A stretch of 48,973 nucleotides of DNA. It comes from Nitrospira sp. LK70. Its GTDB lineage: Bacteria > Nitrospirota > Nitrospiria > Nitrospirales > Nitrospiraceae. Numbering within the stretch: position 1 is the first letter of the stretch; the number at the start of each line of letters is the position of its first letter. Below are positions 30,038 through 33,959 of this stretch, one piece after another. The stretch is taken from assembly GCA_011090425.1 (NCBI GenBank), contig PHGD01000021.1:1-48973 (forward strand), written 5' to 3'. A model generated the notes under the pieces. The model did no database searches. It saw only the letters and a list, made by a program, of their open reading frames with translations, and was not told where the DNA came from. The translations under genes were made by a program, and so were the position numbers.

Positions 30038-30670
30038 CTATTTCACCAGGAAGGCTTTGGAATCTTCTCCGGACGCCGTTGTGACGGTGACCATGACGAG
30101 ACCCTTGCGACCATCGATCGGGACTGTTGTTACGATGGTGGATTCGTTTTCCATTGTAAAGGTGGAAGCCTGGCCTGGTCCGAAGGACACACCGCGCAAG
30201 CAGTCTGGTGAGCCGAACTCGGCCCCTGTGATCGTGACTTTCACACCGGGTTCTCCTTCATCAGGAACAAGCCGTTCGATCTGTGGCGCAACGCCGAAAC
30301 AGGCGTTGCCATCCGCCGCAGTTTCAACTGTTTGAAACTTCGGTTCGATCTTGGGTTTGGTGGTCTCGGGTTGAATGGTCTCCGGTTTGGTGATCTCGGG
30401 TTGGACAGTCTTGGGTTGAACCGTCTCGGGTTTGACGATCTCGGGTTGGACGGTTTTGGGTGTGGCGACCTCGGGTTTCTCAATCTTGGGTTTGACGCTT
30501 TTTGGTTTGACAGCCTTGGGCTTGACGGTTTTTGGTTTGACGGTCTTGGAGTGTGATTTGGCCTTTGGTTGCTGTTCCGCTGCAGGTGCGAGTCCTGGAT
30601 CGGTTATCTGTAAGAACAGGGTCATGATCCCAATCGAAATTGCCGCAACGAAAGCCGTTGGTTTCTCCAT
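30038..30670 (-). CDS. Exported TIG/IPT-domain protein with KP repeats
   Basis: The start is ATG 30670 after AAAGG (an earlier in-frame start at 30700 would precede the signal). The 210-residue product has a signal peptide (PTAFVAAISIGIMTLFLQIT). A low-complexity segment of about 80 residues follows, made of 5-residue units such as KPKTV, KPKAV, QPEIV and KPETV. A C-terminal TIG/IPT-like domain comes next (PQIERLVPDEGEPGVKVTIT then GAEFG). The repeat segment may be an extended spacer crossing peptidoglycan, as in TonB-like proteins; the TIG domain would bind a surface partner. It lies 54 bases downstream of acs on the same strand. Confidence 0.7.
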   Translation of the reverse strand: MEKPTAFVAAISIGIMTLFLQITDPGLAPAAEQQPKAKSHSKTVKPKTVKPKAVKPKSVKPKIEKPEVATPKTVQPEIVKPETVQPKTVQPEITKPETIQPETTKPKIEPKFQTVETAADGNACFGVAPQIERLVPDEGEPGVKVTITGAEFGSPDCLRGVSFGPGQASTFTMENESTIVTTVPIDGRKGLVMVTVTTASGEDSKAFLVK

Positions 30671-30723
30671 ATGCCTTTCCCTTTGCTCAATTAGACCCAT
30701 ATCAGGCCGAACTTCTCTGTACG

Positions 30724-32782: not shown

Positions 32783-33709
32783 ATGAACGGCGCAAGGCAG
32801 TTTGGACAACCCCTGTCACTCATGTTTTTAATCCTACTCTTACTGGGCGCTCATATGATCGGCATGGTTTCGGTTGTCGCTCTGTCGACTGCTGAGGCTC
32901 AAGTGGGAAAGCCGGAGGGCCTGTACTACAAGTCCTGGGCGATCATTATTGGGATCGAAAACTATGTCTTGGCTCCTCCCATCCCTGGAGCGATCAGCGA
33001 TGCCAAGAAGGTGGCCGAAGCGTTTCGGCGGTTGGGCTTCGATGAGGTGATTGAGCTCTACGACAAGGACGCTAGCTCGCGACGTCTCCATCAGCTTTTG
33101 GACGATATGTTGCCCAGAAAAGTCGGCCGCATGGACCGGCTCGTCATCTTCTACGCGGGCCATGCCGGGTTTATGCAGGACTCCGATGGACAAGAGCGAG
33201 GGTATCTTGTGCCGTTTGACGCACAGCTCAACCACGCAACGAAGTCGATCACGGTTGAACATTTGAAGGAATTTACGAGGCGGACGGCTTCCAAGCACAC
33301 GCTCCTGATCTTCGATGCGCCGGTATTCGGATGGGAGATCACTGTGCCACCGGAGCTGTCAATGGAAGGACGGACGGCCCCGGAATCGGAGACCGATCGA
33401 CGTGCGGTGCAAGTCATCAGTGCGGCAAGTAAGGGAGAAGCCAGCGTTCGTCTCGAGAAGAGTAGTCGCTTTGTTGAAACACTATTGATCGGGCTGTCCG
33501 GTGATGCCGATCTGGACGGAAACGGCTGGCTCATGGCTTCAGAGTTGGGGGGCTACCTCGTGCGACAGATCGAGACGGCTTCCAATGGTACACAACGACC
33601 ATCGAGTCTACGGATCGATGGTGATGGAGACACGGCGTTGGTCGAAGGACGGAGGTCGGCATTTACGCTTGGCGCCGATCCTCAAACCCCTTCTGAACGG
33701 CAAGAGTAG
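32783..33709 (+). CDS. Secreted caspase-fold (peptidase C14-like) protein lacking the catalytic cysteine
   Basis: A 308-residue protein with a signal peptide (about residues 12-40, ending STAEAQ). The p20-like caspase core is clear: WAIIIGIENYVLAP, then IPGAISDAKKVAEAFRRLGF and LVIFYAGHAGF with the catalytic His127. The nucleophile strand, normally LLLDACYSG-like, reads LLIFDAPVFGW, with Pro180 at the cysteine position. No cysteine occurs anywhere in the protein. A single EF-hand loop, DLDGNGWLMASE (243-254), lies near the C-terminus. It should therefore be a non-proteolytic homologue, possibly a binding or regulatory protein in the periplasm. Confidence 0.82.
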   Translation: MNGARQFGQPLSLMFLILLLLGAHMIGMVSVVALSTAEAQVGKPEGLYYKSWAIIIGIENYVLAPPIPGAISDAKKVAEAFRRLGFDEVIELYDKDASSRRLHQLLDDMLPRKVGRMDRLVIFYAGHAGFMQDSDGQERGYLVPFDAQLNHATKSITVEHLKEFTRRTASKHTLLIFDAPVFGWEITVPPELSMEGRTAPESETDRRAVQVISAASKGEASVRLEKSSRFVETLLIGLSGDADLDGNGWLMASELGGYLVRQIETASNGTQRPSSLRIDGDGDTALVEGRRSAFTLGADPQTPSERQE

Positions 33710-33788
33710 GCGAAGGCTTAATACAAACGTGCTGTTGCGCTACTCTCGCCCGAGCAACCGCCAGGCAAGCTGATTGTGCATTCGTGCC

Positions 33789-33959
33789 CTAACCGCTCTC
33801 GCCACCTTTCAAGTATCCAAGGCCGATCTTGACCGCTCGCCGGGTGATTTCCGCCCAACGTGCCTGCGGGTAGGCGGCGAGTACCGCCGCAGCTTTGGGA
33901 TCCTGGATCTCCAAGTTCAGAATTCTGATCATACCGTCTTCAATCTGGATGTCCGCCAC
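33789..33959 (-). CDS. Small conserved protein, unknown
   Basis: A 56-residue protein best started at GTG 33959, 7 bases after GGAGG; a longer frame to 34037 has no such site. It reads ADIQIEDGMIRILNLEIQDP then KAAAVLAAYPQARWAEITRR and VKIGLGYLKGG. The shape (short strand, two helices, a basic face) resembles small ribbon-helix-helix or antitoxin-like regulators, but no toxin lies beside it. It is divergent from the lipoprotein operon and convergent with the caspase-like gene. Confidence 0.55.
   Translation of the reverse strand: MADIQIEDGMIRILNLEIQDPKAAAVLAAYPQARWAEITRRAVKIGLGYLKGGESG

Follow-up and report, generated by a model that had tools for sequence, protein, structure and literature searches.

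The window analysed here, a stretch of 48,973 nucleotides from Nitrospira sp. LK70 (assembly GCA_011090425.1, contig PHGD01000021.1), carries a gene for a caspase-domain protein without the catalytic cysteine, referred to below as the pseudo-caspase. The following features were located in this gene:

32783 to 33709, forward strand: open reading frame of the pseudo-caspase (308 amino acids), ATG to stop with the stop codon included; Pfam PF00656, caspase fold in the AlphaFold2 model
32783 to 32899, forward strand: signal peptide (residues 1-39) as read from the sequence, with a signal-peptidase-I-like site A37-E38-A39 before Q40
32933 to 33502, forward strand: Pfam match to Peptidase_C14 (residues 51-240)
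33161 to 33163, forward strand: codon of His127, which is His in 109/109 orthologues
33320 to 33322, forward strand: codon 180, encoding Pro where the nucleophile would stand; no orthologue has Cys here
33332 to 33337, forward strand: Trp184-Glu185, a clade-specific invariant W and E/D beside the former nucleophile
33359 to 33373, forward strand: S-M-E-G-R (residues 193-197), a conserved linker loop motif in a part of low model confidence
33509 to 33544, forward strand: EF-hand-like loop DLDGNGWLMASE (residues 243-254) between model helices 229-241 and 252-266

A sequence-only reading had described the protein as a cysteine-free caspase homologue with an intact fold, a retained catalytic histidine and an EF-hand loop. 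The translated reading frame agrees with it in every sequence detail: YAGHAG occupies residues 124-129 with His127, FDAPVFG residues 177-183 with Pro180, the loop lies at 243-254 and the product contains no cysteine. The absence of cysteine from the whole protein is a weak feature when taken alone, because cysteine beyond residue 44 is found in just 2 of the 91 distinct orthologues. As to the fold, PF00656 (Peptidase_C14) matched with 52.8 bits (E=5.5e-14; curated cut-off 21.4), and the NCBIfam model NF047832 (caspase, EACC1-associated type) scored 40 bits, below its curated cut-off of 140. The AlphaFold2 model, built from a 40-row alignment, shows a caspase fold predicted with confidence: mean pLDDT is 81.3, 165 of the 308 residues reach 90, and the 10-residue blocks of the caspase domain mostly average at least 88, with the exception of the loop at about 181-210. 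Searched with Foldseek and VIA-align, this model matched MALT1, metacaspases and caspases at Z 20-23, the best PDB match being MALT1 (Z 23.1, 209 residues, 2.7 A, model residues 45-289). A PDB sequence search with the window protein as single query gave no match, and a profile search gave weak matches only. The alignment with full caspase domains reaches residue 289, and a p10-like part seems to be present in the model.

The putative signal-peptidase site is well conserved. Position 37 is A, V, S or G in at least 104 of 109 orthologues (A 87, V 11, S 4, G 2), position 39 is A in 103 and Q40 is found in 107. Judged from this signal peptide, the pseudo-caspase is probably exported.

The gene order acs (divergent), pseudo-caspase, LPP20, LpoB, COG3014, LPP20 is kept within the genus and in other genera. 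According to their N-termini, the four genes from LPP20 to the second LPP20 look like lipoprotein genes. At the 41 orthologous loci found by scanning genome contigs, acs was present at 40 and LPP20 at 36; the values for a further 14 loci, most of them from other genera, are 13 and 12, and some of the loci missing either gene lie at contig ends or belong to a second copy. The second LPP20 gene was matched in 42 of 68 loci, several of the others ending before its expected place. Two more genes of this neighbourhood were recorded:

33789 to 33959, reverse strand: small conserved open reading frame with a core of 56 amino acids, convergent, between the pseudo-caspase and LPP20
30038 to 30700, reverse strand: reading frame adjoining acs, with a K/P-rich repeat run followed by a TIG domain; its product is probably exported

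The small reading frame reaches 67-96% identity in 51 of the 57 loci searched and 53-76% in 13 of 14 genomes of neighbouring families. It gave no Pfam family above cut-off (best FliG_M, E 0.17) and is probably a real, unnamed core gene. Because it sits convergently between the pseudo-caspase and LPP20, the pseudo-caspase is probably transcribed alone. Furthermore, the 11 sister-family loci (L181-L191) contain acs and the small reading frame in 11/11 and the LPP20-LpoB-COG3014 block in 9/11, with no caspase-domain reading frame. A DUF4301-like gene fills the gap between acs and the small reading frame in all three of these loci that were read (DUF4301 at L181, the one locus tested with Pfam, E 4.6e-202). 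As the sister family has the block without a caspase gene, the neighbourhood is probably older than the place of the pseudo-caspase in it, and the conserved synteny indicates no functional link. A function via association with the LPP20-LpoB-COG3014 lipoproteins is weakened by the same observation, since the block adjoins acs in that family, too.

The contig scan yielded 43 loci, comprising the 41 orthologues (56-92% identity to the window protein) and two cysteine-bearing deltaproteobacterial relatives (33-35%). Among 395 Nitrospirota genomes, searched with an orthologue-grade threshold of E<=4e-91 and with rows counted by hand, an orthologue was present in 108 of the 110 Nitrospiraceae genomes (53/54 within the genus, 55/56 in the remainder of the family) and in 0 of the 285 others, 7 of which gave distant matches only. 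The two remaining Nitrospiraceae genomes (G181, G234) gave no match at all. These 108 genomes hold 109 copies; one genome has two, and nearly all Nitrospiraceae genomes carry just one. In one genome (G334) the gene appears as two separate matches, either because the copy is broken there or through a fault of the assembly; the better piece alone entered the tally of 109 copies. A Nitrospira-like orthologue (75% identity, Nitrospira synteny) also lies on a contig labelled as uncultured Nitrosospira (L046), a label which is probably wrong.

Residue 180 of the 109 copies is P in 45, A in 33, N in 19, G in 9, S in 2 and E in 1, and is never Cys; 38 of the 41 orthologues of the contig scan have Pro here and the other 3 have Ala. 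Cys180 in close homologues would have made the protein of the window a single-strain mutation or a sequencing error, and this refuting condition did not hold. Proline at this position is not conserved (45/109); the constant trait is the lack of cysteine (109/109). His127, Trp184, G196 and R197 are each present in 109/109 copies, and residue 185 is E or D in every case. The protein has the catalytic His of active proteases throughout and the catalytic Cys in 0 of 109 copies, the window included. The broken dyad in a prokaryotic p20 domain, H-P in the window and H with P, A, N, G, S or E in the orthologues, is that of a pseudo-orthocaspase. The residue after His127 is A, T, S or V in the orthologues (GHA, GHT, GHS, GHV). 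The 22 cysteine-bearing relatives, all of which retain the Cys, have GHG in 19 and GHI in 3 cases. The residues near-invariant in the orthologues but not in these relatives include W184, E195-G196-R197, R112, K113, R116 and N247, the stretch LPRKVGR (110-116) being among the clade-specific invariant ones. Constraint has thus moved to new positions, several of them adjoining the old active site. Positions of the acidic pocket are kept only in part (D73 in 81/109, D178 in 91/109 orthologues), if D73 and D178 are equated with Asp95 and Asp211 of TbMC2, which is our own mapping from the description in PMC6426788. The genome of the window encodes two further caspase-like proteins (L003, G000:C193; L052, G000:C85) in which the dyad also seems to be absent, His being replaced by Arg or Gln and the Cys motif reading DVSLDPS and DGMV. 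Both have retained EF-like loops and resemble exported proteins with several domains.

In a tree calculated without column 180 from 54 of the 91 orthologues and the 22 relatives, one branch separates the orthologues from the cysteine-bearing proteins with 99/98 support, a value to be read with the warning of the tree program of long branches nearby and with a FastTree support of only 0.67. The FastTree alignment held 113 distinct rows of 140 matched, identical rows having been merged and loci of the same genome scoring <90 omitted; alignment A2 held 39 of the 43 contig-scan loci (L015, L016, L027 and L036 omitted, L032 trimmed at its stop). The simplest reading of these sequences is that a single loss of the cysteine took place no later than the base of the Nitrospiraceae. 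Among the nearest cysteine-bearing relatives found are the caspase domains of L044 and L045, two ankyrin-repeat proteins from one deltaproteobacterial MAG which carry these domains at the C-terminus.

Many orthologues continue into a C-terminal TPR domain and comprise about 465 amino acids (Pfam TPR in 3/3 long forms scanned). This longer form is the ancestral one. AlphaFold2 predicted a confident TPR solenoid for it, the inter-domain arrangement being not interpretable at a pTM of 0.51. In the window the coding region ends as follows:

33707 to 33709, forward strand: stop codon preceding the TPR-coding remnant, at a place where the frame stays open in long-form relatives
33710 to 33745, forward strand: about 12 codons left, in frame, of the former TPR-coding part; after them roughly 390 bp are missing compared to L010, L012 and L018

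The same approximately 390 bp, with the same alignment boundaries, are absent from the window, L004, L005, L007 and L008. The TPR-deleted alleles stop at two different neighbouring codons and L015 has a different deletion. The FastTree tree suggests that the TPR domain was lost more than once. Unlike the caspase domain, the TPR part of the window allele has decayed.

Pairwise dN/dS values (NG86, residues 44-290) ranged from 0.057 to 0.279 in 14 pairs, which were chosen rather than all compared. The window and L004, both without TPR, gave 0.112. This value of 0.11 falls inside the range of about 0.07-0.20 for the neighbouring genes of the same two genomes (acs ~0.065, LPP20 ~0.08, LpoB ~0.13, COG3014 ~0.20). 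Because dN/dS stays low in such TPR-less pairs, the caspase domain should be functional in its own right. From the single sequence it had been proposed that the protein is under selection for a role which is presumably non-proteolytic, as opposed to random decay; this is well supported by the absence of Cys180 from 109/109 copies and by dN/dS ratios of 0.06-0.28, which argue against decay. The altered GHG motif, the clade-specific residues near the former active site, the signal-peptidase-like site and the loss of the TPR domain had escaped that reading.

The EF-hand-like loop follows the 12-residue pattern D1, D/N3, D/N/S5, G6, E12 in the window and lies between two helices in the AlphaFold2 model. 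Throughout the 109 copies positions 1, 6 and 12 are Asp, Gly and Glu without exception, position 3 is D or N and position 5 N or D, so the loop is fully conserved. The region matched calmodulin weakly at sequence level (E ~0.02). Position 9 is mostly Met, which differs from canonical EF-hand loops. Since most of the 22 cysteine-bearing relatives have the same loop (D or N at position 1 in 20, E at position 12 in 18), it appears to be inherited, to predate the loss of catalysis and not to mark the functional change. The idea of a calcium-linked role as a new function is not specifically supported by this distribution and was dropped.

Several explanations were weighed against these data. A mutation in a single strain or a sequencing error at codon 180 can practically be dismissed, for the 41 contig-scan orthologues, which come from separate assemblies, all have Pro (38) or Ala (3) there, and none of the 109 copies has Cys. 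It is also very improbable that the gene is a decaying pseudogene, whose protein became dispensable once catalysis was gone. The window allele is indeed truncated, with the TPR part deleted and a stop ahead of it, the signal-peptide part evolves fast and the G334 gene lies in two pieces; against this, dN/dS of the domain is low even between TPR-less alleles and the gene is retained family-wide (108/110 genomes). For the caspase domain, decay was rejected on the low dN/dS.

In another reading, the protein would be a dedicated calcium sensor, selected for binding the ion through its EF-like loop. The helix-loop-helix of the model and the presence of Asp1, D/N3, N/D5 and Glu12 in each of the 109 copies would fit, but a loop older than the loss of catalysis (20/22 and 18/22 relatives) and the Met at position 9 make this unlikely. 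Slightly less likely still is a role like that of c-FLIP towards caspase-8, in which the protein would regulate catalytic caspase relatives of its own cell as a decoy or dominant-negative partner. The genome encodes at least five caspase-domain proteins with seemingly intact His and Cys motifs (L002, L047, L050, L051, L053) and a c-FLIP/caspase-8 complex is among the fold matches; these catalytic paralogues are, however, very divergent from the pseudo-caspase. Alternatively it might be that His127 and the neighbouring acidic residue form the active site of a non-cysteine enzyme, as His127 is invariant and residue 185 always Glu or Asp although the nucleophile position drifts. We know of no caspase-fold enzyme with His and an acidic residue in place of Cys, and regard this as improbable.

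The best explanation, which we consider probable, is that the gene encodes an exported, vertically inherited pseudo-caspase acting non-proteolytically as a binding or scaffold protein. The loss of proteolysis is itself inferred, from the missing nucleophile. The catalytic Cys would have been lost a single time, no later than the base of the Nitrospiraceae; since then purifying selection has maintained the protein, presumably for a non-proteolytic job. The remodelled active-site face may bind a partner or ligand, and the EF-like loop may be a structural calcium site inherited from the catalytic ancestors. In the ancestral form, the TPR domain at the C-terminus, with its roughly 4-5 repeats, would offer another surface for binding. 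The lineage of the window dropped this domain while the caspase domain stayed under selection, and the latter would accordingly be functional by itself. More speculatively, the face formed by His127, Trp184 and Glu/Asp185 together with Arg197 of the linker might be a self-occupied or partner-gated docking site of an exported binding module encoded by a core gene. Arg197 might then lie in the remaining acidic pocket like the basic P1 residue of a substrate, and the inherited calcium loop might hold the domain together outside the cytoplasm.

Bacterial pseudo-caspases have so far been discussed mostly for Cyanobacteria and Alphaproteobacteria. The main family of nitrite oxidisers and comammox bacteria has such a protein in nearly all genomes, and its cysteine-bearing relatives can still be traced, which makes it a clear example of a protease fold taken up for a non-cutting role. 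The invariant residues point to the first targets for mutation. Nitrospira is hard to study genetically, and the protein, if important to the cell, would open a new way into the biology of this genus.

Compared with known systems, the best structural matches over the whole domain are the MALT1 paracaspase (Z 23) and metacaspases (Z 21), which in nature are active proteases with a Cys. Animal pseudo-caspases such as c-FLIP have a caspase fold without nucleophile and work by binding. c-FLIP shares only the fold with the Nitrospiraceae protein and acts on caspase-8 inside animal cells. No publication in the literature on Nitrospira or Nitrospirae caspases, metacaspases and bacterial pseudocaspases, of which few subscription papers were covered, apparently describes the Nitrospiraceae gene.

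Klemencic et al. (2019, PMC6426788) reported 858 pseudo-orthocaspases among 9,994 orthocaspases, 90% of them alphaproteobacterial or cyanobacterial; 'Nitrospir' is absent from the main text of that paper. Like those proteins as described there, the Nitrospiraceae protein has a p20 domain with a broken dyad, is conserved in a clade and seems to keep part of the acidic specificity pocket, and a C-terminal TPR also occurs in some of them (FS dyads, Rhizobiales). The clades described there mainly replace both dyad residues (YS, YN, YA, FS), HA dyads being mentioned for Rhizobiales. The Nitrospiraceae protein differs from these clades in that no copy has lost the His and various residues replace the Cys; its gene occurs once per genome in almost the whole family. 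SyOC of Synechocystis (PMC7889975) is likewise a bacterial pseudo-orthocaspase, a term defined in that paper by the absent p10 domain, and its deletion raised oxidative-stress tolerance. It is cyanobacterial and described without p10, and neither a signal peptide nor a TPR is mentioned in the abstract. Asplund-Samuelsson et al. (2012, PMC3501461) found the Cys-His dyad kept in only 57% of Nitrospirae caspase homologues; their survey, as far as consulted, singles out no conserved gene, synteny, TPR form or kept His. Pseudo-orthocaspases and low dyad conservation in Nitrospirae were already known, whereas the His-retaining clade of the Nitrospiraceae is new.
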